Source: Chryseobacterium defluvii (lineage in GTDB: Bacteria > Bacteroidota > Bacteroidia > Flavobacteriales > Weeksellaceae). Taken from it: 64,000 bases of DNA. A model generated the notes under the pieces. It was not told where the DNA came from. It made no database searches and was given only the letters and a program-made list of their open reading frames with translations. The position numbers and the translations under genes were made by a program. The stretch lies in contig NZ_JACHLE010000001.1 of assembly GCF_014204415.1 (NCBI RefSeq), positions 992,001-1,056,000 of the forward strand, read 5' to 3'. Below are positions 27,249-45,001 of this stretch, one piece after another. Numbering within the stretch: the first letter of the stretch is position 1; each line of letters begins with the position of its first letter.

Positions 27249-27262
27249 AAGTATGTTGCGTT

Positions 27263-28669: not shown

Positions 28670-28670
28670 T

Positions 28671-30620
28671 TTATCTTTTGTGTAATTTAATCCTTTGTAA
28701 TTTATATTTCTTGTCTTTTTTCTGTTTTAAAATAATCCCGGCAAGAGGCGGCAGTTTCAGGGTGATCGATTTTGAATGCCCCATCCATTGCCCGTATTCT
28801 TCCTTAAGGATCTCAGGTTTTATTCCGCTTCCTTTATACCGTTCATCATCGGAACTGAAAAAAACTTCCCAATGGGAGGCTGCATTCACTCCTATTTTAT
28901 AGTCCAGCACACGTGGTGTTAAATTTAACACTACCATAAAGGCATCATCCTTTTTTTTACCCTTCCTTAAATATACGTAAATTGAATTATTTTCATCATT
29001 GGCCTCCACCCACTCAAAACCGTCCGGATTATACTGATTTTCATAAAAGGCAGGCTCATACCTGTAGATATGGTTAAGATCCTTTACAAGCGTCTGCACG
29101 CCTTTATGAACCGGATACTGTAATAAATGCCAGTCTAAACTCCGGGTAAAGTTCCACTCGTTAGTCTGCCCAAATTCATCTCCCATAAACAGAAGCTTGG
29201 CCCCCGGATGGGTGTACATGTACACATATAATGCCCGAAGATTGGCAAATTTCTGCCATTCATCTCCCACCATTTTATAGATCAGGCTTGCTTTTCCATG
29301 AACCACCTCATCATGAGATAAAGGCATCATGTAATTTTCATTATACATATACATGGAGGCAAAGGTGAGTTTATGATGATGGTATTTCCTGTGAATAGGA
29401 TCTTCCTTGAAATAATCCAGGGTATCATGCATCCACCCCATCATCCATTTCATACCGAAGCCTACCCCGCCTTCATGAATCGGCTTTGTCAGCTTAGGAA
29501 AATCCGAACTTTCTTCTGCTATTGTAATAATGTTATTTCCAAATTCTTTATAAACAGCTGTATTGAATTCCTGCAAAAAAGCTTTGGCTTCGAGGTTTAC
29601 GTTTCCGCCATAAATGTTAGGTTCCCATTCCCCTTCATTCCTCGAATAATCCAGATGCAACATGGAAGTGACCGCATCTACGCGAAGGCCATCCGCATGG
29701 TAGCGCTCCAGCCAGAACATGGCGTTTGAAATAAGGAAAGATTTCACTTCATTTCTTCCGTAATTGAAAATATGGGATTTCCAGTCCGGATGAAAGCCTT
29801 TTCTGGGGTCTTCATGTTCATACAGAAAAGAGCCGTCAAAACGATGCAATCCGTTAGCATCTCCTGGAAAATGGGACGGAACCCAGTCTAAAATAACTCC
29901 GATATCATTTTTATGAAGCTCATTAATAAGGTGCATCAGATCCTGCGGTGAACCGAAACGTGAGGTTGCCGCATAAAATCCCGTGATCTGGTATCCCCAG
30001 CTCGGGTCATACGGATATTCCATCACCGGCATGAATTCCACATGAGTAAAACCCATTTCTTTGATATAAGGGACTATTTTTTTAGCAACATCCCTGTAAT
30101 TCAGGAATGTTTCAGGGGCATCCCCCTCCCTTACCCATGAACCTAAATGCAGCTCATATACGGAAACAGGAGCATCCAGACTGTTTTTTTTCCAGCGGTT
30201 TTGAAGCCACTCCCGGTCTTCCCACTCGTACCATGTCGTAGAAACCAAAGAAGCGGCCTGTATGTTCTGTTCCCAGCTTAAGGCATAAGGATCACTTTTC
30301 TCCAAAATTTCTCCGTAAGCGGTTTCAATAGCATATTTGTATAAAGTTCCCCATGTAAGACCTGCAATAAAGCCTTCCCAGATTCCTGATTCGTCCCATC
30401 TGGGATATAGAATATGATCTTTATGATTCCAGTTATTGAAATTCCCTATTACAGAAACTTTTTTTGCATGAGGCGCCCAAACTGAGAAATAAACTCCATG
30501 AATCCCATCTTTCTCCACAGAATGTGCCCCGAACTTTTCAAACAGTTTATAATGCCTGCCTTCTTTAAAAAGGTAAACATCATGATCTGTAAAAAGTGTA
30601 TAGGTTTTAACTGAAATCAT
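28671..30620 (-). CDS. glgB: 1,4-alpha-glucan branching enzyme (GH13)
   Basis: 649 residues. It introduces alpha-1,6 branches into glycogen. The N-terminal CBM48 domain (about 20-110: FSVWAPHAKKVSVIGNFNNWN) is followed by a GH13 barrel with VEFMPVMEYPYDPSWGYQ, DWVPSHFP, the nucleophile aspartate in GLRVDAVTSML, the acid/base glutamate in IAEESSDFP, and LSHDEVVHGK. A beta-sandwich C-domain ends the protein. First gene of the glg operon, divergent from the esterase at 30829. Confidence 0.97.
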   Translation of the reverse strand: MISVKTYTLFTDHDVYLFKEGRHYKLFEKFGAHSVEKDGIHGVYFSVWAPHAKKVSVIGNFNNWNHKDHILYPRWDESGIWEGFIAGLTWGTLYKYAIETAYGEILEKSDPYALSWEQNIQAASLVSTTWYEWEDREWLQNRWKKNSLDAPVSVYELHLGSWVREGDAPETFLNYRDVAKKIVPYIKEMGFTHVEFMPVMEYPYDPSWGYQITGFYAATSRFGSPQDLMHLINELHKNDIGVILDWVPSHFPGDANGLHRFDGSFLYEHEDPRKGFHPDWKSHIFNYGRNEVKSFLISNAMFWLERYHADGLRVDAVTSMLHLDYSRNEGEWEPNIYGGNVNLEAKAFLQEFNTAVYKEFGNNIITIAEESSDFPKLTKPIHEGGVGFGMKWMMGWMHDTLDYFKEDPIHRKYHHHKLTFASMYMYNENYMMPLSHDEVVHGKASLIYKMVGDEWQKFANLRALYVYMYTHPGAKLLFMGDEFGQTNEWNFTRSLDWHLLQYPVHKGVQTLVKDLNHIYRYEPAFYENQYNPDGFEWVEANDENNSIYVYLRKGKKKDDAFMVVLNLTPRVLDYKIGVNAASHWEVFFSSDDERYKGSGIKPEILKEEYGQWMGHSKSITLKLPPLAGIILKQKKDKKYKLQRIKLHKR

Positions 30621-30828: not shown

Positions 30829-31953
30829 ATGATGAGGTTCGACCTTTATACAGAAGAAAATGACGACAGGCCTGTGTATATCACGGGAAATTTCAACAAC
30901 TGGAATCCTAAAGACAGCAACTTTCAACTTAAACAATCAGATACCGGCAGCTATTCTATTGAAATTGATGACAGCCTTCTATCTCCCAATATAGATTATA
31001 AATTTACCAAAGGGGGCTGGGAAAATGTGGAACTGGACAAATACGGGAACATTACTCCCAATCGGAAAACCGAAAAATCAAAAGGCAGGGTTTCTGATAG
31101 TGTGGAAAAATGGAGGCTCAACTGGGGACCTTTTAAAAAGGAGTATTTTCCCCTTGCAGAAATTATTTCGGAAGAATTTTATATTCCCCAGCTTGACCGT
31201 TACCGGAAAGTATGGGCGCTTCTGCCTTATGATTATTATGTTTCCAATAAAGCTTATCCCGTTTTGTATCTTCAGGATGCACAGAACCTGTTCAATGAAG
31301 GAAGCGGCTATGGGAACTGGGAGATCGATAAAAAGCTCTCCATCCTTGCAGAATACGACCGTGGAGATGTGATCATTATTGCCATTGAGCACGGAAGTGA
31401 GGAAAGGATCAAAGAATACATTTTCGATAATGACAATGTGGCCAACGGCTCTGAAGGGAAGAAATACATCCGCTTTATTACAGATACCCTGAAACCGTTC
31501 ATAGATGAAAATTACAGAACCAAAAAAGACAGGGACAACACCGGCATCGGAGGCAGTTCTTTAGGAGCTTTGATCAGCATTTACAGTGGATTCCTTTATC
31601 CGGAAGTCTACTCTAAATTATTGATCTTCTCCCCTTCTCTTTGGGTAGAACCGAATAATAACTTCCCTATGATGAATTTCCGGGCACCCTTCAAAATGAA
31701 AATATATTTATACGGCGGCGGGCAGGAAGGCTCCAAGATGGTCAAAAGAATTCACCTTTTCGAAGATTATTTGAAAAGATGGGAGAAAAAAAATCTTTTT
31801 GATTTTGAATTTAAAACGAATATTAACCCGGAAGGTACACATAGTGAATTCTACTGGTCTCAGGAATTCCCGAGAGCAATCGAATGGCTCTTCTACGACA
31901 ATAAAGAAAACCCTGTTGAGGTAAAACCACAACAGAAAAGTATCAAAAATTAA
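30829..31953 (+). CDS. Esterase with N-terminal AMPK-type E-set domain
   Basis: 374 residues. Residues 1-60 form an immunoglobulin-like E-set domain like those that bind glycogen (VYITGNFNNWNPKDS). Residues 120-350 form an esterase D/enterochelin-esterase-type alpha/beta hydrolase with nucleophile S244 in GGSSLGAL and a likely histidine in NPEGTHSEFYW. There is no signal peptide, so it is cytoplasmic. It sits head-to-head with glgB, which may point to glycogen binding, yet it is only five bases from the aminopeptidase gene, which points to peptide or amide chemistry. Confidence 0.85.
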   Translation: MMRFDLYTEENDDRPVYITGNFNNWNPKDSNFQLKQSDTGSYSIEIDDSLLSPNIDYKFTKGGWENVELDKYGNITPNRKTEKSKGRVSDSVEKWRLNWGPFKKEYFPLAEIISEEFYIPQLDRYRKVWALLPYDYYVSNKAYPVLYLQDAQNLFNEGSGYGNWEIDKKLSILAEYDRGDVIIIAIEHGSEERIKEYIFDNDNVANGSEGKKYIRFITDTLKPFIDENYRTKKDRDNTGIGGSSLGALISIYSGFLYPEVYSKLLIFSPSLWVEPNNNFPMMNFRAPFKMKIYLYGGGQEGSKMVKRIHLFEDYLKRWEKKNLFDFEFKTNINPEGTHSEFYWSQEFPRAIEWLFYDNKENPVEVKPQQKSIKN

Positions 31954-31958
31954 TATCT

Positions 31959-33374
31959 ATGAAACTAATCAACAAAAAAAATAAAAAATATACTCAAATC
32001 TTCCATTTATTCACAGAAGAAGAATGGACTAAAGCAAATAAAAAATTCAATAAAAATATCTCCACTTTTTTTACCGGAAAGAAGCACGAAGTTTTCATCA
32101 ATACCGATGAAGATGGGATTACTTACTTTATCGGTCTTGGAAAATCTACGCTGGAGAATTTTGAAATCCAACAAGTAGCCAATAAGTTTTCACAAACCCA
32201 GAAAAAAGGTTTACAGGCCGCTCCCACTTTGGTTCTTGCCGATTTCCTCAATGAAAAACAATTCGAGGAGTTTGTAAAAGGGCTTCTGATCGGGACATAC
32301 AACTACCCTTTCGAAAAAAACCATCCCTTCTGGAATACTAAATTTGAAATTCACTTTGAAAGCCTGAGCCAGAAAAAACTGGACCAGGTCATTCTGAGAG
32401 CTGAAGCCATAAGTAACGGACAAATTGCCTGCCAGGAATGGCTGAATAAACCTGCCAATCTTAAAAAACCTGATATTTTCAATACCTATCTTAAAGCTCT
32501 TGCCAAAAAGCATCACCTAAAATATACCGTTTTCAACCGGAAAAAATGCGAAGAGCTTGGCCTGGGCGCCTATCTTTCCGTCAATCAGGGAAGCGCTTAC
32601 GATGCTGCTTTCACTATCCTGGAATATAAAACAGACGTTAAAAAAGCCAAAACTTTCGGATTAGTCGGAAAATGCGTATTGTTTGATACCGGAGGAGTTT
32701 CATTGAAAAATCCGGACAATATGCATTATATGAAATCCGACATGGGAGGCGCTACAGCCGTTTTGGGAGCTTTGATCTGTGCTTCAGAAATGAAGCTTCC
32801 CGTTAATATTATTGCTGTTTTACCGATCACAGACAATGCTATTTCGGAAAATGCCTTTCTTCCAAGTGATGTGATTACTGCTTATAACGGAAAAACCATA
32901 GAAGTACTGAATACTGATGCGGAAGGAAGAATGATTTTAGCCGATGGCCTTTCCTATCTCGCCAAAAATTACAAAACGGACCTTATTATTGATCTTGCCA
33001 CTTTAACGGGCAGTTCGGTAAGAATGTTCGGGGATACCTGCGGGGCTTTATTTTCAAATAATGAAGAATTGAAAAATCTTTTGATCAAAACCGGAGATAA
33101 AACCAATCAGAGATTATGGAATCTTCCGCTGTGGGATGTATGGAAAGATGATATTCAGTCTGATGTGGCCGATCTTAAGAATATTTCCATGAAACCAATA
33201 GGTGATTGTATCATTGCCGCCAAATTCCTGGAGCAATTCATTGAAAACCATCCTAAATGGGCACATTTAGATATAGCAGGAGTTGCTTTTGGAAACACAA
33301 ATTATGCCAAAGAAAAAGCAGCTACCGGTTTCGGGGTACAATTATTAACGGATTTAATCGAAAATTATCACTAA
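31959..33374 (+). CDS. Leucyl aminopeptidase family M17
   Basis: 471 residues. The C-terminal catalytic domain has the two-metal site: GKCVLFDTGGVSLK, KSDMGGATAVLGAL, and the family signature NTDAEGRMILADGLSYL. The N-terminal domain (1-150) is divergent. M17 enzymes are hexameric zinc/manganese exopeptidases that remove N-terminal residues and can split dipeptides such as Cys-Gly. It is coupled to the esterase upstream and separated by 141 bases from the ATP-grasp cluster downstream. Confidence 0.93.
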   Translation: MKLINKKNKKYTQIFHLFTEEEWTKANKKFNKNISTFFTGKKHEVFINTDEDGITYFIGLGKSTLENFEIQQVANKFSQTQKKGLQAAPTLVLADFLNEKQFEEFVKGLLIGTYNYPFEKNHPFWNTKFEIHFESLSQKKLDQVILRAEAISNGQIACQEWLNKPANLKKPDIFNTYLKALAKKHHLKYTVFNRKKCEELGLGAYLSVNQGSAYDAAFTILEYKTDVKKAKTFGLVGKCVLFDTGGVSLKNPDNMHYMKSDMGGATAVLGALICASEMKLPVNIIAVLPITDNAISENAFLPSDVITAYNGKTIEVLNTDAEGRMILADGLSYLAKNYKTDLIIDLATLTGSSVRMFGDTCGALFSNNEELKNLLIKTGDKTNQRLWNLPLWDVWKDDIQSDVADLKNISMKPIGDCIIAAKFLEQFIENHPKWAHLDIAGVAFGNTNYAKEKAATGFGVQLLTDLIENYH

Positions 33375-33515: not shown

Positions 33516-34727
33516 ATGGAGGAGAAAACAATAGTATGTATTTCGTGCTATTACAAGGGCTATGATTTCATGAATGAAATGAAGAAGCTCGGTAATAAGA
33601 TTATTTTAGTAACATCCGAAAATCTTAAAGAAAAAGACTGGCCTTGGCATGCCATTGATGAGGTATTCTACATGCCCGAGGTAAAGCCGTCTGTCTGGAA
33701 TATGGATCATCTGGTACAAGGATTTTCCCACCTGATGCAGACCAGAAAAGTAGATGCCGTGATCGCGCTGGATGATTACGATGTAGAAAAAGCAGCCCTT
33801 ATCCGGGAAACATTCCGTATTCCGGGAATGGGACAGACTACGCATCGTTATTTCAGGGATAAACTGGCGATGAGACAGAAGGCTAAAGATTCCGGGATCA
33901 GTGTACCGGAATTCACTGCGGTTTTCAACAATGATGAAGTTAACGAGTTTACTGATAACGTTCCTGCTCCTTGGGTTTTAAAACCGCGTTCAGAAGCATC
34001 TGCATCTGGAATTAAAAAACTGACTTCCAAAGAACAGCTTTGGGAAGCTTTGGATACGCTTGGAGAAGAACGGCATATGTTCTTATTGGAAAGTTTTAAA
34101 CCGGGCGATGTTTATCATGTGGACAGCTTAACATTCAATAAAGACATTGTCTTCACATCCGCTTCAAAATATCTGGCACCACCTATGCAGGTTTCTCATG
34201 AAGGGGGTGTTTTCAGAAGCAAAACTTTAGGGAGATATTCTGATGAATTCAAGTCCCTGGAGCAGGTAAATGCAAAAGTTATTTCCAGCTTCGGATTGAT
34301 GAATGGAGCAACGCATACGGAATTCATCCGCGGTAAAGATGACGGAAAGTGGTATTTCCTGGAAACTTCTTCAAGAGTCGGAGGAGCCCATATCCCGGAT
34401 CTGGTAGAAGCTTCCAGCAACATTAATATCTGGAGAGAATGGGCAAAAATTGAAGACGCACTTTTAAGGGGTAAGAACTACGAGGTTTCTAAACCTACAG
34501 GATATTATTCGGGGCTCATCGTAGCTTTGATCAAAGACAAAGAACCCGATTATAATGAATTTAAATGCGAAGAGGTTGTAAAATTTCTCCCGATAGATTA
34601 TCATGTGGGAATTGTTTACAAATCCAACGATTCTGCCATTGTACAGGAAAGATTGGATTATGCTGCTGAAAAAATTCACTCGGAACTACTTAATATCCTT
34701 CCTCCTAAAGACAGACCAACGAGTTAA
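33516..34727 (+). CDS. ATP-grasp carboxylate-amine ligase (first)
   Basis: 403 residues. The N-terminal pre-ATP-grasp region starts TIVCISCYYKGYDFM. The ATP-grasp core has APWVLKPRSEASASGIKKL (lysine and small-residue loop), followed by LLESFKPGDVYHVDS and the metal-binding end YFLETSSRVGGAHIP. It resembles the carbamoyl-phosphate/biotin-carboxylase-like branch of ATP-grasp enzymes, which form amide or peptide bonds through acyl phosphates. Substrates cannot be read from sequence. First gene of the amidoligase cluster. Its stop codon lies inside the first unit of a seven-base tandem repeat. Confidence 0.85.
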   Translation: MEEKTIVCISCYYKGYDFMNEMKKLGNKIILVTSENLKEKDWPWHAIDEVFYMPEVKPSVWNMDHLVQGFSHLMQTRKVDAVIALDDYDVEKAALIRETFRIPGMGQTTHRYFRDKLAMRQKAKDSGISVPEFTAVFNNDEVNEFTDNVPAPWVLKPRSEASASGIKKLTSKEQLWEALDTLGEERHMFLLESFKPGDVYHVDSLTFNKDIVFTSASKYLAPPMQVSHEGGVFRSKTLGRYSDEFKSLEQVNAKVISSFGLMNGATHTEFIRGKDDGKWYFLETSSRVGGAHIPDLVEASSNINIWREWAKIEDALLRGKNYEVSKPTGYYSGLIVALIKDKEPDYNEFKCEEVVKFLPIDYHVGIVYKSNDSAIVQERLDYAAEKIHSELLNILPPKDRPTS

Positions 34728-34762
34728 GAGTTAAGAGTTAAGAGTTAAGAGTTAAGAGTTAG
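34721..34762 (+). repeat. Seven-base tandem repeat (GAGTTAA)n
   Basis: Five perfect copies of GAGTTAA and a sixth ending GAGTTAG. The first copy contains the stop codon of the upstream ATP-grasp gene, so copy-number change would not alter that protein but would alter the leader of the esterase gene. Confidence 0.9.
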
Positions 34763-34831
34763 CAAAATTATTTATTATTCATGACTCAAAATATCAATCA
34801 TCATTAATCAATTATCATTTATAAATAAAAT

Positions 34832-35545
34832 ATGCCTCAAATAGAACATACAGACTATTATTCACATATATTAGGAACAAGCCTTAAAGTAGAAGTAACC
34901 GGACATTACGGATATCCTATCATTATGTTTCCGACTTCTCAGGGACAATACACACAAAACCATGATTTCCACCTTAATGGAAGTATTAATTGGTTTATAG
35001 AACAGGGAAAAGTTAAACTATATAATGTTCAGACCATTGACGGCTGGAGCTTTTACGATGAAAAGATCTCCCCGCAGCAAAGGATAAAAAATTATGAACT
35101 CTATGTAAGATTTCTGATCGAAGAATTTGTCCCTTACATTCAGAAGCTTCATCAGACCCATCGCGTTGCTGTTGCAGGAGCCAGTTTTGGAGGGTACCAT
35201 GCTGCCAACTTCGCATTCAGGTTTCCGGATGTGGTTTCGCATTTATTCTGCCTGTCCGGGGCTTTCAGCATCCGGAATTTTATGGACGGCTATTCCGATG
35301 AGCTGGTTTATTTTAACTGCCCTCGGGAATTTGTAAGAAATGATGAAGCCTGGAAATACAAACATATGCATATTGTTTTAAGTACCTCAGATCAGGATAT
35401 ATGCAAGGATAAAAACCTGGAAATGGCAGGGATCTTAAAATCAAAAGGAATTGATTTCTGGTATGATGAAAGAAAATGGATCAATCATGATTGGCCACTA
35501 TGGAGAATGGTTTTCCCAACATTTATAGGATCCTTCTTCTCCTAA
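34832..35545 (+). CDS. Serine esterase in the amidoligase cluster
   Basis: 237 residues, alpha/beta hydrolase of the esterase D-like type with no signal peptide. Nucleophile S118 in GASFGG, a likely acid in STSDQD (187-189), and histidine H219 in WINHDWPLW. The fold matches small acyl-esterase or thioesterase-like enzymes. It sits between two ATP-grasp genes on the same strand, which suggests that it removes an ester or releases a product of those ligases. Substrate unknown. Confidence 0.85.
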   Translation: MPQIEHTDYYSHILGTSLKVEVTGHYGYPIIMFPTSQGQYTQNHDFHLNGSINWFIEQGKVKLYNVQTIDGWSFYDEKISPQQRIKNYELYVRFLIEEFVPYIQKLHQTHRVAVAGASFGGYHAANFAFRFPDVVSHLFCLSGAFSIRNFMDGYSDELVYFNCPREFVRNDEAWKYKHMHIVLSTSDQDICKDKNLEMAGILKSKGIDFWYDERKWINHDWPLWRMVFPTFIGSFFS

Positions 35546-35603
35546 ACTTTTAAAACTGAAATAATATCTAAACATTAAATACAACATTAAAAAACAAAAA
35601 ATT

Positions 35604-36557
35604 ATGGCAAAAAAAGTGGGAATTCTATTCGGAATGGAAGATACATTTCCTTGGGCATTTATTGACAAGGTAAATGAATTAGGCGGCGGAGAAGTTATAG
35701 CAGAACCTGTAAGTATCGACAAACTGGAACAAGGCGCTGACTATGGCTATGCAGTAATTATCGACAGAATTTCGCAAGATGTTCCTTTTTACAGAGCTTA
35801 CCTTAAAAATGCAGCAGTTAACGGAACTTATGTGATCAATAACCCGTTCTGGTGGAGTGCTGATGAGAAATTCTTCAATAATGCACTGATGTCTAAACTG
35901 GGAATTCCACTTCCAAAAACAGTTTTGTTACCATCACATGAAAGACCTACCAATACTTCGGAAACTTCATTCAGAAACCTGAAATTTCCTCATGACTGGG
36001 ATTATATATTCAATTATATAGGCTTTCCTGCTTATATGAAACCTCACGACGGCGGTGGATGGAGAAACGTGTACAGAGTGGAGAACGCTGAAGATATGTG
36101 GAATAAATTAGGTGAAACGGAACAGCTTGTCATGATGGTTCAGGAAGAGATCGTTTTCCAGGATTATTACAGAGTGTACTGCTTAGGTAAAAAATATGTG
36201 CATATTATGCCTTATGAGCCAAGAAATCCACATCACCTGAGATATGCTACGACTCACCAAACGCAGGGTGAAGATCTGGAAAAATTATTAAAGACCATTC
36301 ATGATTACACGATCAAAATGAATGAGGCTTTAGGATATGATTTCAATACGGTGGAATTTGCAGTAAGAGACGGTATTCCTTATGCGATCGATTTCTGTAA
36401 CCCTGCACCGGATGCAGACAAGAATTCGGTAGGAGAAGAAAACTTTGCCTGGATTGTGGAACATTCTGCAAAATTGGCTATTGAAAAAGCTAAAGAATAT
36501 GTTCCGGGAAAACCAAATATCTCTTGGGGAACTTTTGTAAAAGATTCAGCAAAATAA
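35604..36557 (+). CDS. ATP-grasp ligase (second, RimK-like)
   Basis: 317 residues. An N-terminal Rossmann-like region (VGILFGMEDTFPWAFIDK) is followed by an ATP-grasp core: FPAYMKPHDGGGWRNVYRV supplies the lysine and glycine-rich loop, MMVQEEIVFQDYYRVYCLG the middle strand, and NTVEFAVRDGIPYAIDFCNPAPDAD the metal-binding end with E, D and N. The size is in the RimK/glutathione-synthetase range, consistent with adding an amino acid to a carboxylate. It lies 25 bases before the GCS2 gene, so the two are co-translated. Confidence 0.86.
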   Translation: MAKKVGILFGMEDTFPWAFIDKVNELGGGEVIAEPVSIDKLEQGADYGYAVIIDRISQDVPFYRAYLKNAAVNGTYVINNPFWWSADEKFFNNALMSKLGIPLPKTVLLPSHERPTNTSETSFRNLKFPHDWDYIFNYIGFPAYMKPHDGGGWRNVYRVENAEDMWNKLGETEQLVMMVQEEIVFQDYYRVYCLGKKYVHIMPYEPRNPHHLRYATTHQTQGEDLEKLLKTIHDYTIKMNEALGYDFNTVEFAVRDGIPYAIDFCNPAPDADKNSVGEENFAWIVEHSAKLAIEKAKEYVPGKPNISWGTFVKDSAK

Positions 36558-36582
36558 ATTAAGAAAATAAAACACAAAAAAA

Positions 36583-37701
36583 ATGCATCAATTTACTATC
36601 GGAATCGAAGAAGAATATCAAATTATTGATGTTGAGAGCAGGGATCTTGTCTCTCATGTTTCGAAAATCATTGAAGGCGGAAAAGCGGTTTTAAGTGAAA
36701 ATTTAAAACACGAAATGCATGAATCCATGATCGAGATGGAAACCGGCATTTGTCAGAATATACAGGAAGCCAAAGCAGAGCTTACCAATTTAAGAAGACA
36801 CCTTATCAACACAGCCCACGAACAGGGACTTCGCGTTTCAGGAGGGGGTACACACCCGTTTTCAAATTGGGAACATAATACGATCACCAACGGAGAACGT
36901 TATATCAAGATCGTGGATGATATGGGTGATGTAGCACGGGGAAATCTTATTTTCGGACTTCACGTTCATATCGGGATTCCGAATCGTGAGGAAGGCGTAA
37001 GGATTCAAAATGTAATGCGTTATTTTCTGCCTCACGTATATGCCCTTTCCACGAATTCTCCTTTTTGGATCGGAAGAAACACCGGGTTTAAGTCTTACAG
37101 ACAGGAAATTTTTGTAAAATTCCCGAGAACAGGAATACCAAGCTACTTTAATTCCCTTGCCGAGTTTGACAGCTATGTGGATCTTCTGGTAAAAACAGGA
37201 ACGATAGATAATGCCAAAAAGATCTGGTGGGATCTTCGTGTACACCCGTTCTACCCTACCATTGAATTCAGGATCTGTGACATGCCGCTAAGAATTGACG
37301 AAACGGTTTGTTTGGCAGCTATTATGCAGAGCCTTGTAGCCAAGATATATAAACTTCATCAGCAGAATTTAAGTTTCAGAAGCTATAGAAGGCTCTTGCT
37401 TAACGAAAATAAATGGAGGGCTTCCAAAAGCGGAATCGAAGCTCACCTGATCGATTTCGGGAAAGAAGAATCCGTGCCTTATCCTGACCTTTTAAAAGAA
37501 CTCCTTGAATTTATTGATGATGTAGTGGATGAGCTGGGATGCAGAAAAGAAGTGGAATATGCCTGGACAATCCTTGAAAACGGAACCGGAGCTGACCGAC
37601 AGCTTAAAGTATTCAATGAAACAGGGGATCTTGCCAAGGTTGTAGACTATATGATCTCAGAAACTGAGTTTGGCATAACACATGGCGAAACGGCTTCATA
37701 A
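36583..37701 (+). CDS. GCS2/YbdK-family carboxylate-amine ligase
   Basis: 372 residues, typical length for the YbdK branch (COG2170) of the glutamine-synthetase-like fold. The first strand carries the metal-binding glutamates in GIEEEYQIID (7-16). Further motifs are HEMHESMIEMETGIC, SGGGTHPFSNW, FGLHVHIGIP, TNSPFWIGRNTGFKSYR and TIEFRICDMPL. YbdK of E. coli has weak glutamate-cysteine ligase activity; here the likely substrate is another glutamate-like carboxylate and amine. The position between an ATP-grasp enzyme and an amidotransferase supports a multi-step amide assembly. Confidence 0.92.
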   Translation: MHQFTIGIEEEYQIIDVESRDLVSHVSKIIEGGKAVLSENLKHEMHESMIEMETGICQNIQEAKAELTNLRRHLINTAHEQGLRVSGGGTHPFSNWEHNTITNGERYIKIVDDMGDVARGNLIFGLHVHIGIPNREEGVRIQNVMRYFLPHVYALSTNSPFWIGRNTGFKSYRQEIFVKFPRTGIPSYFNSLAEFDSYVDLLVKTGTIDNAKKIWWDLRVHPFYPTIEFRICDMPLRIDETVCLAAIMQSLVAKIYKLHQQNLSFRSYRRLLLNENKWRASKSGIEAHLIDFGKEESVPYPDLLKELLEFIDDVVDELGCRKEVEYAWTILENGTGADRQLKVFNETGDLAKVVDYMISETEFGITHGETAS

Positions 37702-37710
37702 TTTTTTTGG

Positions 37711-37718
37711 TAACTTTG
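37711..37718 (+). promoter_or_regulatory. Possible internal promoter box before the amidotransferase
   Basis: TAACTTTG, a match to TAnnTTTG, 19 bases before the ATG at 37738, in a 36-base gap inside the cluster. Confidence 0.35.
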
Positions 37719-37737
37719 CAGGAAATTAGAAGTAAGT

Positions 37738-38571
37738 ATGAAAGATATTAGAATCGCTTTGTTGGATATGAACAACAATCATGTCAATCAGGGTTTCCGA
37801 AACATTAAAGAAATTTCTGAAGCGTTCCAGCTAAGTTCTGATGAGAATGTAACCATTAAAACGTTCGATGTAAGGCATAAAAATGAAATTCCGAATATTG
37901 AGGATTTTGATATTTTTATTTCTTCGGGAGGTCCCGGAACGCCGCACAGGGAAGGTTTTGAATGGGAAGATAAATTTGCGAATTTTCTGGATACGGTTTT
38001 CGAACACAATAAATACAACGAGGATAAAAAGTATCTGTTCCTAATATGCCACTCATTCCAGTTGGCGAGTATTCATTGGGATCTGGGTAATATATGCAAA
38101 AGAAAATCTTATTCTTTCGGAGTAATGCCGGTTCATAAAACAGAAGAAGGCGAACAGGAGTTTTTATTCAGAAACCTTCCGGATCCTTTTTATGCTGTGG
38201 ATTCAAGAGCGTACCAGTTTATTGAACCCAACTATGAGCGTTTTGAAGAATTGGGAATGAAGATCGTGGCGATCGAAAAATTCCGTCCGCACATCAATTT
38301 AGAGAGGGCGGTAATGGCTATTCGTTTTTCTGATGAGATCTTTGGAACACAGTTCCATCCTGAGGCCAACCCTGCAGGCATGGTCGAAAACCTGAAGGAT
38401 GAAAAGAACAAGGAAGCCATGATAGAAAATTTCGGAATGGAAAAGTATCTTGAAACCTTAGACAGAATGGATGATGAAGATAAGATTATCCTTACCCAGG
38501 CTCAGATACTTCCAAGATTTTTACAGTTTGCCAAAAAGAACATTTTAAAAGGGTTTGCTGTAATGGCTTAG
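37738..38571 (+). CDS. Class I glutamine amidotransferase-like protein
   Basis: 277 residues. GATase-I fold with oxyanion-region SSGGPGTPH (62-70), nucleophile C104 in LICHSFQ, and the His-Glu pair H207 and E209 in GTQFHPEANP. The residue after the nucleophile is histidine, not the common glycine, so the elbow is unusual. There is no synthetase domain. It could supply ammonia to one of the ligases or hydrolyse a gamma-glutamyl bond in the manner of PuuD. The C-terminal 60 residues are a helical extension. Confidence 0.86.
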   Translation: MKDIRIALLDMNNNHVNQGFRNIKEISEAFQLSSDENVTIKTFDVRHKNEIPNIEDFDIFISSGGPGTPHREGFEWEDKFANFLDTVFEHNKYNEDKKYLFLICHSFQLASIHWDLGNICKRKSYSFGVMPVHKTEEGEQEFLFRNLPDPFYAVDSRAYQFIEPNYERFEELGMKIVAIEKFRPHINLERAVMAIRFSDEIFGTQFHPEANPAGMVENLKDEKNKEAMIENFGMEKYLETLDRMDDEDKIILTQAQILPRFLQFAKKNILKGFAVMA

Positions 38572-38603
38572 AAGCTTAGCTTAATAAAATAGGTACTTCA
38601 TGA

Positions 38604-38626
38604 ACTACGAAGCATCTAAAAAATAA
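38604..38626 (+). repeat. Weak half-copy of the dispersed palindromic repeat
   Basis: CGAAGCATCTAAAAAA resembles the end of the repeat at 40002-40031. It lies between the amidotransferase stop codon and the terminator hairpin. Confidence 0.4.
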
Positions 38627-38641
38627 ACTATTTAAATACAG

Positions 38642-38668
38642 AAATCGAGCAAATTTGCTCGATTTTTT
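38642..38668 (+). terminator. Terminator inside the amidoligase cluster
   Basis: Perfect 12-base palindrome AAATCGAGCAAA/TTTGCTCGATTT followed by T residues, 21 bases before the third ligase gene. It would separate or attenuate expression of the downstream genes. Confidence 0.85.
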
Positions 38669-38688
38669 AAAATCACAAAGAAAAAATT

Positions 38689-39873
38689 ATGATACCAAAA
38701 TACCGGAAACAATTTAACCAGGAATTCACTTACGAAAAATACGATCAGTTTAAACAGATACTGAAGCAAAAAAGCGGCTTAGAGCCTGCTTTCAGAATTT
38801 CTGAAAGCCCGATCTTCCTTACAAAAGAATTTGAAGGCAAACTTATTGATGCCTGTGAGAGCATTATAGACCAGATCAAATCCTTACCTCCTGAAACACT
38901 GGATAAGTCCATCCCTGAAAACTGTAAAGTTCCCAATGATACGAAACAGCCTCATTTCCTTACGATAGATTTTGGTATCTGCAAAAATGAAAAAGGTGAA
39001 ATAGAACCGCAGCTTATAGAACTGCAGGCTTTCCCGTCTCTGTATGCCTTCCAGCAGGTGTATGAAGATACATTCTGCGAATTGTATCCTTTCCTCAATG
39101 AGATCAGGAATAAAATGCCTTACGAGGAATTAAGAAACTACCTGAAAGAGGTAATCGTTGGGGATGAGGATCCTGAAAATGTCATTCTTTTAGAAATTTT
39201 CCCGGAGAGGCAGAAAACAGGCATTGATTTTGCGCTTACCGAAAGGTTATTAGGAATTAAAACGGTCTGCCTGACCAAAGTAAAAAAACAGGGAAACAAA
39301 CTCTACTATGAGAATGACGGAAAACTTATAGAGATTAAAAGGATCTATAACCGTGTGATCTTTGATGAGCTGGACAGGATCCCGGATCTTACCACTGAAT
39401 TTGATTTCCGTGATGATATTGATATAAAATGGATCACCCATCCGAACTGGTTCTTTAAGGTTTCAAAATTCCTTTTACCATTATTGCAACATCAGTTTAT
39501 TCCAAAAAGCTATTTCCTGCATGAGTTCCCGGAAAATGAAAACCTTGAGAATTTTGTTTTAAAACCCTTATTCTCCTTTGCAGGAAGCGGAGTTAACCTG
39601 AACCCGACAAAGGAGGTTACAGACGCCATTGAAGATAAAGAAAACTACATTTTACAGAGAAAAGTAACCTATGAACCAATTCTTGAGGATATCAACGGTG
39701 AATTTTCAAAAGCAGAAATCCGTTTGTTATATATCTGGAAAGAAAATGACGAAAGACCTGTTCTTCTTGAAAATCTTGGAAGAATGACCAAAGCAGCTAT
39801 GGTGAATGTAGATTTCAATAAGAAAGATGCTATCTGGATCGGAGGTTCCAATGCCTTTTTTGGTGAAGAATAA
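38689..39873 (+). CDS. ATP-grasp-like protein, divergent (third)
   Basis: 394 residues. I infer an ATP-grasp relative from FVLKPLFSFAGSGVNLNP near residue 285, which resembles the lysine and glycine-rich loop, and from EIRLLYIWKENDERPVLLENLGR. Acidic motifs LIELQAFPSLYAFQ lie N-terminal to this loop, an order that hints at the circularly permuted or glutathionylspermidine-synthetase-like type. There is no close match to a family I know by name. Its place in the cluster supports another ligase; substrate unknown. Confidence 0.65.
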   Translation: MIPKYRKQFNQEFTYEKYDQFKQILKQKSGLEPAFRISESPIFLTKEFEGKLIDACESIIDQIKSLPPETLDKSIPENCKVPNDTKQPHFLTIDFGICKNEKGEIEPQLIELQAFPSLYAFQQVYEDTFCELYPFLNEIRNKMPYEELRNYLKEVIVGDEDPENVILLEIFPERQKTGIDFALTERLLGIKTVCLTKVKKQGNKLYYENDGKLIEIKRIYNRVIFDELDRIPDLTTEFDFRDDIDIKWITHPNWFFKVSKFLLPLLQHQFIPKSYFLHEFPENENLENFVLKPLFSFAGSGVNLNPTKEVTDAIEDKENYILQRKVTYEPILEDINGEFSKAEIRLLYIWKENDERPVLLENLGRMTKAAMVNVDFNKKDAIWIGGSNAFFGEE

Positions 39874-40045
39874 AATCTGATTTATATAATTTAGATGCTT
39901 CGACTTTGCTCAGCATGACACAGAATAATTGATAAAAGATAATTGATGAACGATAAATCACTTCTCATCTAAAATTTAAAATCTATAATTTATAATTTCC
40001 CTGTCATGCTGAGCAAAGTCGAAGCATCTAAAAAACTAAGATAAT
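39874..40045. other. Intergenic region with a perfect inverted-repeat element
   Basis: 172 bases between the third ligase and the small membrane gene, filled by the repeat element at 39891-40031. I see no coding sequence. Confidence 0.6.
39891..40031. repeat. 141-base element bounded by perfect 30-base inverted repeats
   Basis: The arm at 39891-39920 is the exact reverse complement of 40002-40031, separated by 81 AT-rich bases. The arms contain GATGCTTCGACTTTGCTCAG and GCATGACA, the same family as 8573-8600. No transposase is present and I see no clear target duplication. It could be a mobilisable miniature element or a paired insertion of a REP-like sequence. Confidence 0.9.
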
Positions 40046-40504
40046 ATGGAAGAACAATCAGCATTTGAAGAGTTTGATGTAAAAACCGGTCCCATACGGA
40101 GAAGAAGCCTGCTCCCGTTATGGATCAAGATATTTTTATGGATATTTTTGATCATGGGAAGCATTGCTGTTTTGATCTTCCTGTGCGGGCTTTTTATGGA
40201 CGATGTAGAATTATCAATTTATGGCATTGAGGCTAATCATCCTTATACAATCTCCGGACTTATCGTTAGTATTTTAATGATCTGCAAAGGCATTGTGGCT
40301 TACGGACTCTGGTTTGAACAGGATTGGGCCCCAAAAGCAGCAATCATTGACGCTGTTGCAGGTATTATTATATGCTCGGCTATGATGATGATTATTCCTT
40401 TCATCTCCGATGCGATTAAGTTTAGCATCAGGCTGGAATTGATTCCTTTGATTTTCTATCTGATAGATATGCGGAAAATAGAAAAAAAATGGAATAGAGT
40501 CTAA
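40046..40504 (+). CDS. Small four-helix membrane protein
   Basis: 152 residues. A basic N-terminal segment (about 1-28) is followed by four hydrophobic helices at about 29-52, 66-88, 94-117 and 128-142. No recognised family. It is the last gene on the plus strand before the cphA terminator and could be a membrane partner or exporter accessory of the cluster, by position only. Confidence 0.7.
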   Translation: MEEQSAFEEFDVKTGPIRRRSLLPLWIKIFLWIFLIMGSIAVLIFLCGLFMDDVELSIYGIEANHPYTISGLIVSILMICKGIVAYGLWFEQDWAPKAAIIDAVAGIIICSAMMMIIPFISDAIKFSIRLELIPLIFYLIDMRKIEKKWNRV

Positions 40505-40510
40505 AAAAAT

Positions 40511-40540
40511 AAAACCTCCGAAAATTCGGAGGTTTTTTTA
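40511..40540. terminator. Bidirectional terminator before cphA's end
   Basis: Perfect 12-base stem AAAACCTCCGAA/TTCGGAGGTTTT with a two-base loop, flanked by A- and T-rich DNA. It serves the membrane gene (+) and cphA (-). Confidence 0.92.
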
Positions 40541-40556
40541 TGATGCAATATTGCGT

Positions 40557-43184
40557 TTAAATCTTATTGTCTTCCTGCAACTCTCTTGTCTGGTATTCCT
40601 GCACAAGATCGATCGCATTAGAGATCACATCGCTTAAGGCCGTGATAAAAGTGCCTTCTTCCGCCATGCTCATCGCATGCTTTAAGGCCTCGATCTCTTT
40701 TGGAATAATTTCATAGCTCACATCTCTTCCCGAAGACTGTATTCCCTCAATGATCAGCCCGTTGATCTCTTCTTCCGTTCTTCCGCGAAGATGTTTTTCG
40801 TTTCTGATGATGATATTATCGAACATCCTTCCGGCGATCTTTCCGCAAAGTTTGATATCTTCATCCCTTCTGTCTCCAACTCCTGAAATAATACCAATCT
40901 TCTTAGTAGCTTCTATATTTTTGAGGAAATCTTCAATGGCTTCATATCCCGCAGGGTTATGGGCAAAATCGATGAGTACCTTGAAATTTTTGAATTTGAA
41001 AATATTCAGTCTTCCCGGGGTAAGCTGGGCACTTGGAATGAATGTCCTCAATGAATTGGAAATATCTTCAATGCCAAAACCATAAAGATAAGACGCCAGA
41101 CTGGCTGCCAGAACATTCTGGATCATAAATTTGGCTTTTCCTTCCATAGTGATCGGGAAATCCTTTGCCTTTCCTATTCTGATCTTCCAGTCTCCTTTTT
41201 TAATGGTTACAAAACCTTCTTCATATACACAGGTAATTTTCCCTTCCTTTGCAAATTTCCTGATGTGAGGATTATTCTCATCCATACTGAAAATGGCCAC
41301 ATTACTGTCCAGTTCATTCAGGATTTTCATAGAATATTCATCATCTGCGTTCATCACACTCCATCCGTTTTTCTTTACGCTGTCCAGAACCACTCTTTTT
41401 ACTTTTGCAAGGTCTTTCAGGTTATGAATGTCATTCAGTCCCAAGTGATCTTCCTTGATATTCGTCAGAACACCGATATCACATTGTGAAAATCCTAATC
41501 CGGCACGCAAAATCCCTCCCCTTGCAGTTTCCAGAACAGCAAATTCCACGGTAGGGTCTTTTAAGATAAATTCTGCAGAAAGCGGGCCTGTGGTATCCCC
41601 TTTGGAAAGCATTGTATTTTGTATATAGATCCCGTCTGAAGTAGTAAAGCCCACTCTATAGCCATTACTTTTAACGATATGGGAAATCAATCTTGTTGTC
41701 GTTGTTTTACCGTTAGTTCCGGTAACCGCAATGATTGGAATGGTATAAGGTTTTCCCGGCGGATACAACATATCCACCACCGGAGCGGCAACGTTTCTTG
41801 GCAGTCCTTCACTTGGGGCCAGGTGCATCCTGAAACCCGGTGCTGCATTCACTTCAATAATGGCTCCTCCGCTTTCTTTCAAAGGCTGGGTAAGATTTTC
41901 CGCCATAATATCGATTCCGCAGACATCAAGCCCGATGATCTTGGATATTCTTTCTGCCATCGTTACATTCTCGGGATGCACCATATCGGTCACGTCAATA
42001 GAAGTTCCGCCTGTAGAAAGATTTGCCGTCGATTTTAAATAAACCACCTCTCCTTTTTGAGGAACGGTTTCAAGAGTATATTGTAATTTTTCAAGAAGTT
42101 CCAGGGTATCTTTATCCACTTCGATCTCCGTTAAGACATTTTCATGGCCATATCCCCTTCTCGGGTCCTTATTTTCTTTTTCTATCAGCTTTTCAAGATT
42201 CAGTTCACCGTCTCCCACAACGTGAGCAGGAACTCTCCTTGCCGCTGCAACCATTTTATTATTGATCACCAACACCCTGAAATCATATCCGGTAATATAT
42301 TTTTCAACAATTACTTTTCTGGAATATTTCTGGGCATGCTGCAGGCCAATTTTGGCAGCTTCCCAATCATTTACATTGATCGAAGAACCTTTCCCATGAT
42401 TTCCGTCCAAAGGTTTCAAAACGATGGGGTATCCTATCTTCCGGATTACTCTCTCCAAATCTTCTTCATCCACGATCAGATCTCCTAACGGAACAGGAAT
42501 AGCAGCATCATGCAGCATTCTTTTCGTAAGCTCTTTATTACAGGCAATATCAACGGCAATAGAACTTGTTTTCCCGGTAATGGTAGCCTGAAACCTTTGT
42601 TGGTTTACCCCATACCCCAGCTGTACTAAAGAATTGGTCCCTAACCTTATCCACGGAATCCTCCTGGAAACAGCTTCTTCCACAATACTTCCCGTTGAAG
42701 GGCCTAAACGTACCCTTTCCCTGATCTCTTTCAGTTTCTGGATACAGGCATTCAGATCGTAATCTTTTCCTTCAACCAAAGCTTCCGCAATTTTTACAGC
42801 CTGTTCGGCAGCATAAATACCTGCATTTTCTTCCAGATAATTGAATACTACATTGTAAACTCCGGGACTTTTAGTCTCCCGGGTTCTTCCGAATCCCACA
42901 TCCATTCCCGCCAGGGTCTGGATCTCTAAAGCAACATGCTCAATAACATGTCCCATCCAGGTTCCAGTTTCTACCCTGTGGAAGAAACCTCCTTCCACTC
43001 CTTCGGAGCATCTGTGTGTGATTAAGGATGGCATCAGTTTTTCTATCCGTTCCCGGAAACCTTCGATTTTATTGGTAGGGAAATCTTCCATTTCTTCAAG
43101 ATCAAGCCTCATCTGTATCAGCTTTTTCCTTCTTATACTCCAAATATTAGGTCCGCGTAAAGCCTGTATCTTTTCGATTTTCAT
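40557..43184 (-). CDS. cphA: Cyanophycin synthetase
   Basis: 875 residues from the ATG at 43184 (MKIEKIQALRGPNIWS); an upstream in-frame start at 43232 would add 16 residues and is less likely. It polymerises aspartate and arginine into multi-L-arginyl-poly-L-aspartate. Domain order is the family's: N-terminal domain (1-160), ATP-grasp domain for aspartate addition (KPLDGNHGKG 257-266, EVNAAPGFRMH 444-454), and a Mur-ligase-like domain for arginine addition (P-loop GTNGKTTTT 489-497, then NIKEDHLG and DFAHNPAGYEA). It is convergent with the ligase cluster and divergent from cphB. Confidence 0.96.
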   Translation of the reverse strand: MKIEKIQALRGPNIWSIRRKKLIQMRLDLEEMEDFPTNKIEGFRERIEKLMPSLITHRCSEGVEGGFFHRVETGTWMGHVIEHVALEIQTLAGMDVGFGRTRETKSPGVYNVVFNYLEENAGIYAAEQAVKIAEALVEGKDYDLNACIQKLKEIRERVRLGPSTGSIVEEAVSRRIPWIRLGTNSLVQLGYGVNQQRFQATITGKTSSIAVDIACNKELTKRMLHDAAIPVPLGDLIVDEEDLERVIRKIGYPIVLKPLDGNHGKGSSINVNDWEAAKIGLQHAQKYSRKVIVEKYITGYDFRVLVINNKMVAAARRVPAHVVGDGELNLEKLIEKENKDPRRGYGHENVLTEIEVDKDTLELLEKLQYTLETVPQKGEVVYLKSTANLSTGGTSIDVTDMVHPENVTMAERISKIIGLDVCGIDIMAENLTQPLKESGGAIIEVNAAPGFRMHLAPSEGLPRNVAAPVVDMLYPPGKPYTIPIIAVTGTNGKTTTTRLISHIVKSNGYRVGFTTSDGIYIQNTMLSKGDTTGPLSAEFILKDPTVEFAVLETARGGILRAGLGFSQCDIGVLTNIKEDHLGLNDIHNLKDLAKVKRVVLDSVKKNGWSVMNADDEYSMKILNELDSNVAIFSMDENNPHIRKFAKEGKITCVYEEGFVTIKKGDWKIRIGKAKDFPITMEGKAKFMIQNVLAASLASYLYGFGIEDISNSLRTFIPSAQLTPGRLNIFKFKNFKVLIDFAHNPAGYEAIEDFLKNIEATKKIGIISGVGDRRDEDIKLCGKIAGRMFDNIIIRNEKHLRGRTEEEINGLIIEGIQSSGRDVSYEIIPKEIEALKHAMSMAEEGTFITALSDVISNAIDLVQEYQTRELQEDNKI

Positions 43185-43379: not shown

Positions 43380-43385
43380 CATACT

Positions 43386-44276
43386 ATGATGAAACCTGTT
43401 GGAAAATTAATTATTATCGGAGGTGCTGTAAACAAAGGAAGCTTTACGGAAACCGATTTTGACCAGAATATAGAAAAAAACCTTAACTTCTTTGAAAGAG
43501 GTATCTTAAGAAAGATTATCAATGAGTCTAAAAACAAAGAAAATTCGGTCATAGAGGTTATTACTACCGCCTCACAAATCCCTCAAATAGTAGGTACGGA
43601 ATATAAAAAAGCATTCGAGTTTCTGGGTGCCAAAAATGTAAATATTCTTGATATCCATAACCGTGAAGAAGCCAATTCTGATGCTATGGTCGCAAGAGCC
43701 AGTGCCGCCGATGTGGTCATGTTCACCGGCGGGGATCAGCTGAGACTGACGTCTATCCTTGGCGGGACGAGATTTCATGATACCATTTTACTGAAATACC
43801 AGGAGGAGGACTTTATTTATTCCGGGACTTCTGCCGGCGCTGCTGCTGCTTCTGAAAACATGATCTATCAGGGAAGCAGTTCTGAGGCTCTGCTCAAGGG
43901 AGAGATCAAAACGACACAGGGCTTAGGCCTTATTGACAACGTTATTATTGATACTCATTTCGTGCAAAGAGGAAGGATCGGACGTCTTTTCCAGGCAGTG
44001 GTTAATAATCCAAGGACATTAGGAATTGGTTTGGGAGAAGATACCGGGCTTTTCATTCATAATGATGTGATGACTGCTATTGGTTCCGGGCTTGTCATTA
44101 TTGTAGACGGAAGATTTATTAAAGACACCAATCTTACCAATATCAATCTGGGTGAGCCTATCTCCATTGATAATTTAACAGTGCACGTAATGTCAATGAA
44201 TGATCATTATGATCTGGCAACCCGGGCACTGACGATCGAAAACTCCCAGTTCAATCCCGTACCTCAGGACCGGTAA
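43386..44276 (+). CDS. cphB: Cyanophycinase
   Basis: 296 residues from ATG 43386; ATG 43389 is equally possible. Serine exopeptidase of family S51 that cuts cyanophycin into beta-Asp-Arg dipeptides. The nucleophile is S149 in SGTSAGAAAAS. GGDQL (115-119) and the histidine H191 in DTHFVQRGRIGRL are the family's other landmarks. It is divergent from cphA and followed after eight bases by the DUF1275 gene, so the three plus-strand genes form a degradation operon. Confidence 0.95.
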   Translation: MMKPVGKLIIIGGAVNKGSFTETDFDQNIEKNLNFFERGILRKIINESKNKENSVIEVITTASQIPQIVGTEYKKAFEFLGAKNVNILDIHNREEANSDAMVARASAADVVMFTGGDQLRLTSILGGTRFHDTILLKYQEEDFIYSGTSAGAAAASENMIYQGSSSEALLKGEIKTTQGLGLIDNVIIDTHFVQRGRIGRLFQAVVNNPRTLGIGLGEDTGLFIHNDVMTAIGSGLVIIVDGRFIKDTNLTNINLGEPISIDNLTVHVMSMNDHYDLATRALTIENSQFNPVPQDR

Positions 44277-44284
44277 GCTAAATC

Positions 44285-45001
44285 ATGTTCAGGCATAAAG
44301 GGAAAACCCGGACTTATTACCATAACCTGCATATAGCCTGCTTATTATCTTTTGTAGCCGGAATCGTAAATGTAGCCGGGTATTTGTCTGTGCAAACCCT
44401 TACCACTAATGTAACAGGGCATTTTGCCTTTTTTATTGATGAAATATTTAGTCTTAGATTCTGGAAGGGTTCTATTTATTTTTTCTATATCCTGTTTTTC
44501 TTTATGGGGTCATTTATTTCTAATTTTATCACAGAAATAATTTCCAGAAAAAACAGTCAGTATATATATGTAATCCCTACTTTAATGGAAAGCATTATTT
44601 TATTATCTACCGGAATATGGGGAAGCTATTTTATAAAATACAATCCTGTACTGCTGTCTTTTCTATTATTATTTGCTATGGGCATGCAGAATTCACTGGT
44701 AACTACAATATCTAATGCCAGTGTGAGAACTACTCATTTAACAGGGCTGTTTACTGATTTGGGCATTGAGCTTTCGCAACTCTTTTTTTATAAAGAAGAG
44801 AAAAGAAAAAGACTCCTTTCATCCATTAGGCTTAGAGTTTCTATTATTAGTTTTTTCTTTTTAGGGGGTATTACCGGCGGAGTCCTTTATGGTTCTATTG
44901 CTTTGGCAATCCTTATTCTGGCCGGTATAATATTATTATTGGGATTAATATACGATTATATAAAAATTGGTTATCTTGTGTACAAAAAACATCATCATTA
45001 A
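44285..45001 (+). CDS. DUF1275 (YoaK-like) membrane protein
   Basis: 238 residues with six hydrophobic segments. N-terminal region CLLSFVAGIVNVAGYLSV, then TTNVTGHFAFF and MGMQNSLVTTISNASVRTTHLTGLFTDLGIELSQ (read as landmarks), which is the DUF1275 signature. The function is unknown; transport or membrane sensing is a guess. Its stop codon overlaps the ATG of the isoaspartyl peptidase (TAATG), and it is eight bases from cphB, so it is tightly tied to cyanophycin breakdown. Confidence 0.87.
   Translation: MFRHKGKTRTYYHNLHIACLLSFVAGIVNVAGYLSVQTLTTNVTGHFAFFIDEIFSLRFWKGSIYFFYILFFFMGSFISNFITEIISRKNSQYIYVIPTLMESIILLSTGIWGSYFIKYNPVLLSFLLLFAMGMQNSLVTTISNASVRTTHLTGLFTDLGIELSQLFFYKEEKRKRLLSSIRLRVSIISFFFLGGITGGVLYGSIALAILILAGIILLLGLIYDYIKIGYLVYKKHHH

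Follow-up and report, generated by a model that had tools for sequence, protein, structure and literature searches.

Layout of the gene cluster

The window analysed here, a stretch of 64,000 nucleotides from Chryseobacterium defluvii (G000:C1:992001-1056000), contains a set of genes for amide ligases, peptidases and esterases whose recurrence in other genomes is the subject of this report. The seven plus-strand open reading frames (ORFs) that an earlier reading of the sequence, the original prediction, had placed in the interval 33516-40504 are all present, in the same order and at unchanged coordinates, and their family assignments hold. Two of these could be refined: the RimK-like protein fails the RimK family model but appears to fold as an ATP-grasp ligase, and the protein described as divergent ATP-grasp-like, here called AG3, is predicted to adopt the glutathione synthetase/GspS fold. 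The genes form two blocks (Table 1). Block A has the order est2-RimK-like-GCS2/YbdK-GAT-AG3, where GAT denotes a class I glutamine-amidotransferase-like protein, and block B consists of AG1 together with lap and est1, which lie just upstream of the interval. The arrangement goes far beyond chance and recurs in order across Bacteroidota and beyond, and its genes are co-inherited with their catalytic residues kept.

The cluster boundary should be set farther upstream, so that it includes lap and est1, and the small membrane protein should be dropped. The latter was seen in the genus only (L046, L047, L007, L009, L010); it was found neither in L061 nor in the cluster cores of the other families examined, and it probably lies outside the core. 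Block B, situated just upstream of block A in the window, is inverted and downstream of block A at L062, L139 and L159, and at L163-L165, L167 and L169 est1-lap-AG1 stands alone, apart from block A.

Table 1. Genes and other features of the cluster and its surroundings, with positions in the window.
Feature	Position	Strand	Place	Remarks
est1	30829-31953	+	block B	PF00756 serine esterase, 83.8 bits
lap	31959-33374	+	block B	M17 leucyl aminopeptidase, PF00883 355 bits
AG1	33516-34727	+	block B	L-amino acid ligase-like ATP-grasp ligase; PF13535 above cut-off
est2	34832-35545	+	first gene of block A	small PF00756 alpha/beta hydrolase
RimK-like ATP-grasp ligase	35604-36557	+	block A	ATP-grasp fold in model
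GCS2/YbdK carboxylate-amine ligase	36583-37701	+	block A	NF010039
GAT	37738-38571	+	block A	class I glutamine-amidotransferase-like, PF00117
Terminator-like palindrome	38642-38670	+	between GAT and AG3	12+12 nt, perfect, then T run
AG3	38689-39873	+	block A	permuted ATP-grasp, predicted glutathione synthetase/GspS fold
Small membrane protein	40046-40504	+		152 aa, without family match
Bidirectional terminator	40511-40536		between cluster and convergent cphA	stem and T tails; inverted repeat I2
cphA	40557-43184	-	neighbour outside module	cyanophycin synthetase, TIGR02068
cphB	43383-44276	+	neighbour outside module	cyanophycinase, TIGR02069

Conservation and co-occurrence

Phyletic profiles of the RimK-like gene, AG3, AG1, GAT and cphA were drawn over one set of 297 Bacteroidota genomes, and gene neighbourhoods were counted on 80 named contigs retrieved with the RimK profile. 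The RimK-like gene was found in 107 of the 297 genomes, and roughly one in three of the sampled Bacteroidota carry the gene set, which also turns up here and there in other phyla. AG3 occurs in 91 genomes, 88 of them in common with the RimK-like gene (Fisher p 4e-52 per genome), and all 63 genera with AG3 are RimK-positive (p 1e-26), both p-values being too small owing to the relatedness of the genomes. The 65 genomes with AG1 are without exception RimK-positive, as are 68 of the 69 with GAT. GCS2 was present in 45 of 59 RimK-positive genomes tested, as against 4 of 71 other genomes, RimK-negative, where identity was 33-39%; one RimK-negative genome (G212) nevertheless keeps GCS2-GAT-AG3. The RimK-like gene and AG3 lie more than 15 kb apart or on separate contigs in 39 of the 88 shared genomes (a count somewhat inflated by contig breaks), and their co-occurrence is therefore more than hitch-hiking. 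Because they are independent of linkage, the phyletic profiles constitute the strongest evidence for a functional unit.

The order esterase-RimK-GCS2-(GAT or M29 peptidase)-AG3 is recurrent among the 80 RimK neighbourhoods, where GCS2 was found 76 times, AG3 64, est2 57, GAT 47 and an M29 peptidase 10 times. Carriers include isolates of Algoriphagus, Mucilaginibacter, Pontibacter, Belliella, Arcicella, Sediminibacterium (which has only RimK-GCS2, short of the full order) and Cryomorpha, as well as metagenome-assembled genomes (MAGs) of Ignavibacteria. Single MAGs labelled Calditrichaeota, Cloacimonetes, Verrucomicrobia, Thermoanaerobaculum and delta-proteobacterium also carry it, although such MAGs may be mis-binned. 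Pairwise divergences of the five core proteins are correlated (r 0.73-0.89; permutation maxima <=0.20), and 57 of 60 genomes within the genus carry a full-length AG3. The genes are co-conserved in related genomes, and the original prediction, which hung on this, is not refuted. A module so widely conserved argues for a general metabolic role rather than a strain-specific one; its carriers often have the genes dispersed and inherit them together all the same, as is characteristic of a general metabolic pathway.

Variants of the module are instructive. An M29-type peptidase occupies the GAT position in several lineages (L054, L078, L087, L088, L092, L099 and others); GAT and M29 alternate at this one position, and some lineages have neither. 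Where GAT is absent, RimK-GCS2-AG3 is left as the minimal core. A Chitinophagaceae-like group has a circularly permuted ATP-grasp protein in the place of GCS2 (L067:10522-11970, L072:8132-9553), and AG3 is missing from such genomes. This protein is a natural replacement, which may be informative on the GCS2 substrate. In Mucilaginibacter the cluster is followed by a gene for a large GH18-deacetylase-glycosyltransferase protein (L117:13708-17049) and by a short conserved ORF with a CGSNCKCG motif.

Enzymes of block A

The first enzyme of block A, est2, scores 36 bits against PF00756 (cut-off 22), and its residues S118, D189 and H219 are kept in 74, 77 and 74 of 77 homologues, respectively. The RimK-like protein has no Pfam match and falls short of the RimK family TIGR00768 (35.8 bits, cut-off 143.4). 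Its AlphaFold2 (AF2) model (predicted local distance difference test, pLDDT, 83.5) was matched by Foldseek to Ddl, RimK, LysX/ArgX and PsnB, with E-values of 1e-13 to 1e-11 for Ddl, RimK and LysX. K146, E251, D263 and N266, which correspond to the nucleotide-binding Lys and the metal-binding Glu, Asp and Asn, are conserved in 117-118 of 119 sequences. By modelled fold and residues the gene encodes a classical ATP-grasp ligase, with a RimK-like fold but without membership of the RimK family. Orthologues from several families (L062:9008-9949, L048:9458-10525, L053:8925-9854) end in Lys/Ala-rich low-complexity C-terminal tails, which the window copy does not have.

RimK modifies ribosomal protein S6 in other bacteria, and the fold matches include a structure of RimK with RpsF (5zk6). 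By this precedent the RimK-like enzyme and AG3 could attach amino acids to a protein, from which GAT, M29 or lap would remove them. This explanation is rather improbable, given that the family test fails, that the cluster cores contain no conserved small protein or tag gene, and that several ligases together with an L-amino acid ligase suit a small molecule better. Modification of the cell envelope, with a precursor of the wall or capsule receiving amino acids from the ligases, is still less probable. The first matches of the RimK-like model are D-Ala-D-Ala ligases, and in other systems wall and capsular polymers are substrates of ATP-grasp enzymes; however, the neighbourhoods do not consistently contain any mur, glycosyltransferase or flippase gene, and about two in three of the sampled Bacteroidota, a walled phylum, lack the cluster.

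GCS2 is recognized as a carboxylate-amine ligase (NF010039, 535.5 bits, cut-off 371) and resembles the YbdK structure 1r8g (E 4e-50), with its catalytic residues conserved. GAT matches PF00117 (39.5 bits, cut-off 22.8), and its Cys-His-Glu triad (C104, H207, E209) is intact in 67 of 67 sequences. It is probably a gamma-glutamyl or peptide hydrolase: since an M29-type peptidase substitutes for it, hydrolysis is favoured, by this indirect argument, over a supply of ammonia.

The putative ligase AG3

By sequence AG3 has only a sub-cut-off match to GSP_synth (PF03738), which together with YgiC (7uk8) provides its best sequence matches. Its AF2 model (pLDDT 91.5) finds human glutathione synthetase (8fbz) as the best Protein Data Bank fold match (Foldseek E 1.5e-14, template-modelling score 0.63), followed by the circularly permuted ATP-grasp protein 3n6x and E. 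coli GspS (2io7, E 2e-11); YjfC (7uk6) and Cp1B (9cjn) were further matches. Residues D94, E111, Q113, K292, E343 and R345 are invariant in 80 of 80 sequences. The KP...G loop, D94 and E111 of GspS/YgiC are kept. At the acyl-phosphate site gss and YgiC read RxD...ExN and AG3 reads [A/Q/T]xD...ExQ, in a comparison where only the loop region was aligned and the motif was placed by eye. The corresponding residues of Cp1B are R139, D141, E163 and N165 (PMC12568646). With two of the four site residues changed, yet D, E and Q constant throughout the family, AG3 is taken to form a distinct, new subfamily within the glutathione-synthetase fold, related by modelled fold and not by motif. Its conserved residues suggest that it is probably active. 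The original prediction had also depended on the ATP-grasp proteins having catalytic residues; these are kept, with the reservation that AG3 retains only part of the family motif.

The resemblance of AG3 to GspS, YgiC and YjfC, which condense peptides with polyamines, in sequence (7uk8, PF03738) and in fold (2io7, 7uk6, 9cjn), suggests a synthesis of peptidyl-polyamines or peptide-amines. AG3 would join a GCS2/RimK peptide to a polyamine and GAT or M29 would release it, as in glutathionylspermidine metabolism; YgiC and YjfC are cited as peptidylpolyamine synthetases by the authors of the Cp1B study (PMC12568646). This possibility is unlikely, though the foremost of the alternatives: glutathione synthetase matches the structure just as well, AG3 departs from the RxD and ExN residues, and no polyamine genes were seen in the loci examined.

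AG3 also occurs in another family away from RimK, directly after an Amidohydro_3 gene (L190, 4892-7517); in the same family a gene of about 480 aa precedes it at L189 (4900-7487). Genes of about 480 aa precede AG3 at L186, L188, L191 and L200 as well, and the one at L193 encodes a CNNM/CBS protein.

Enzymes of block B

AG1 exceeds the cut-off for ATP-grasp_4 (PF13535, 30.9 bits, cut-off 27). Its nearest solved relative is the L-amino acid ligase 4wd3 (E 3e-17, residues 72-326), and it has weak matches to DdaF and BacD. AG1 is related in sequence to the L-amino acid ligases, and dipeptide formation is predicted for it. The lap product has an intact metal-binding motif, NTDAEGRM, and lap adjoins AG1 in other families too. 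The N-terminal stretch of est1 resembles, as judged by eye, a CBM48/E-set domain, and a related esterase at L176 has a weak AMPK1_CBM match. Divergent from est1, the minus strand of the window carries glgC-glgA-glgB (25980-30620).

Precursor search and transcription signals

The 1009 small ORFs of 119 loci yielded no cluster spanning families in or beside the core, except a scattered GIY-YIG-like ORF. A ribosomally synthesized and post-translationally modified peptide (RiPP) or graspetide cluster, or a gene for a protein tag, was rejected for want of a small ORF conserved between families. The proposal that four ligase-type enzymes without a ribosomal precursor make a non-ribosomal, amide-linked metabolite gains by these results: with four co-conserved ligases that keep their catalytic residues and no conserved precursor, such a product is most likely.

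Matches to sigma-70-like promoters and to terminators were at chance level, and a single transcript is therefore not supported; the Bacteroidetes-type promoter pattern was not found at the cluster. Given the palindrome at 38642-38670, AG3 may be expressed at a different level from the preceding genes. These signals, together with the position of the palindrome between GAT and AG3, would fit unrelated housekeeping genes lying side by side without a common pathway, an explanation that is very unlikely because it is contradicted by the phyletic coupling, which holds even where the genes are unlinked.

Cyanophycin genes

Both cyanophycin genes downstream of the cluster are genuine (cphA, TIGR02068 1276, cut-off 850; cphB, TIGR02069 228.7, cut-off 126.6). 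In the genus cphA, cphB and then a beta-aspartyl-peptidase gene follow the cluster, which could by this proximity make or use cyanophycin-derived peptides, and the original prediction had drawn a link to these genes. However, cphA is convergent to the cluster, behind the bidirectional terminator (11-bp stem, T tail on both strands), and it is only in the genus that cphA and RimK are as close as about 6 kb. Over the 297 genomes cphA (40 genomes) and the RimK-like gene share 18, a number without significance (Fisher p=0.22; genus level p 0.18). The link is rejected on the phyletic profile, the genus-confined adjacency and the convergent terminator, and an accessory role in cyanophycin metabolism is highly improbable. 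Hence, of the gene order proposed for a search in relatives, the cluster itself recurs across Bacteroidota, and the adjoining cphA-cphB only in the genus. A DUF1275 membrane protein (44285-45001) is encoded between cphB and the beta-aspartyl-peptidase gene.

Proposed pathway

In fold the proteins of the cluster correspond to acyl-phosphate amide ligases, a Cys-His-Glu amidotransferase/hydrolase, peptidases and serine esterases. Four ligases, a hydrolase or peptidase, an aminopeptidase and two esterases, without a nonribosomal peptide synthetase (NRPS) or a precursor, fit the assembly and trimming of a small peptide, and the pairing of GCS2 with a protein of the glutathione-synthetase fold points to a gamma-glutamyl peptide and to a layout resembling that of glutathione metabolism. 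The pathway proposed, with a probability of about one half, is cytosolic and independent of NRPS, and its enzymes would both build and trim a small gamma-glutamyl-type peptide or peptide amide. GCS2 would activate the gamma-carboxylate of glutamate and couple it to an amino acid or amine, as does gamma-glutamylcysteine ligase, and the RimK-like enzyme and AG3 would extend the product by further residues, with AG1 possibly supplying a dipeptide building block. GAT, or the M29 metallopeptidase elsewhere, would cleave a gamma-glutamyl or peptide bond, either in turnover or in removal of a transient protecting gamma-Glu. The lap enzyme might break down a dipeptide, and the PF00756 esterases might cleave an O- or S-ester of the product or a conjugate. 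The overall logic would be like that of glutathione metabolism, with other enzymes and probably another product.

Several points weigh against this proposal. Its substrate assignments are inferred only, and a protein is a possible substrate. GCS2 is missing, or replaced by the circularly permuted ATP-grasp protein, in some lineages, and gamma-glutamylation may therefore not be universal. Of the RxD...ExN motif shared by GspS, YgiC and Cp1B, AG3 has neither the Arg nor the Asn. Finally, the bacillithiol gene bshC is present in 292 of the 297 Bacteroidota, RimK-positive or not, and with this gene near-universal the product fills no obvious low-molecular-weight thiol gap.

Replacement of bacillithiol as the cellular thiol was rejected, since the distribution of bshC leaves no complementarity. 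Canonical glutathione synthesis was also rejected: the best GshB match in the genome (TIGR01380) reaches 24.5 bits against a cut-off of 299, in a test that covered GshB, not gshA. On both grounds it is improbable that the product merely takes the place of a thiol lacking in these cells. A more specific version of the proposed pathway can be put forward tentatively, in which the product is a new low-molecular-weight gamma-glutamyl peptide, widely distributed in Bacteroidota and scattered phyla, a glutathione analogue in layout and perhaps a thiol or peptide-polyamine, served by dedicated ligases, hydrolases and esterases that cleave conjugates, with AG3 as a new subfamily of the glutathione-synthetase fold.

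If the set makes one compound, free-living Bacteroidota would share a common metabolite that has so far escaped description. With the candidate enzymes, the minimal core and the natural replacements (M29 in place of GAT, the permuted ATP-grasp in place of GCS2) now defined, the question can be tested directly.

Comparison with known systems

A survey by Iyer et al. in 2009 reportedly covered ATP-grasp/GCS2 amidoligase neighbourhoods with peptidases and may already list the present set. Literature searches, which did not reach that survey, found no description of this operon. Pathways of this kind, in which small peptides are made by stand-alone amide ligases, are known. For the present gene set, with so wide a distribution, and for the AG3 subfamily the literature searched contains no description. 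The novelty that the original prediction had seen in this exact set is lost as a local one, the module being widely conserved.

Ligase clusters of the bacilysin and dapdiamide type are strain-specific antibiotic loci. AG1, with its nearest relative 4wd3 and its weak matches to DdaF and BacD, recalls their L-amino acid ligases, whereas the present set is widespread and has unrelated partner enzymes. PuuA and PuuD carry out the gamma-glutamylation and deglutamylation of putrescine, PuuA being glutamine-synthetase-like. The cluster likewise pairs a gamma-Glu ligase with a class I GAT hydrolase, but its ligase is of the GCS2 and not the glutamine-synthetase type, and there are four ligases here. 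With GspS, YgiC, YjfC and the fungal Cp1B, AG3 shares the permuted ATP-grasp fold, the KP...G loop, D94 and E111, and differs from them by its [A/Q/T]xD...ExQ signature, with D, E and Q invariant over 80 sequences, and by its gene context; the E-64 pathway, to which Cp1B belongs, likewise uses stand-alone amide ligases (PMC12568646).

Unlike glutathione metabolism, the cluster has other enzyme families and two extra ATP-grasp ligases, no GshB exceeds the cut-off, and a bacillithiol gene is present too. The likeness extends over five steps: a gamma-glutamyl-type ligase (GCS2) corresponds to the GshA-type ligase, a second ligase of the glutathione synthetase fold (AG3) to the eukaryotic-fold enzyme, a class I GAT hydrolase to gamma-glutamyl hydrolysis, an aminopeptidase to the Cys-Gly dipeptidase and a PF00756 esterase to S-formylglutathione hydrolase.

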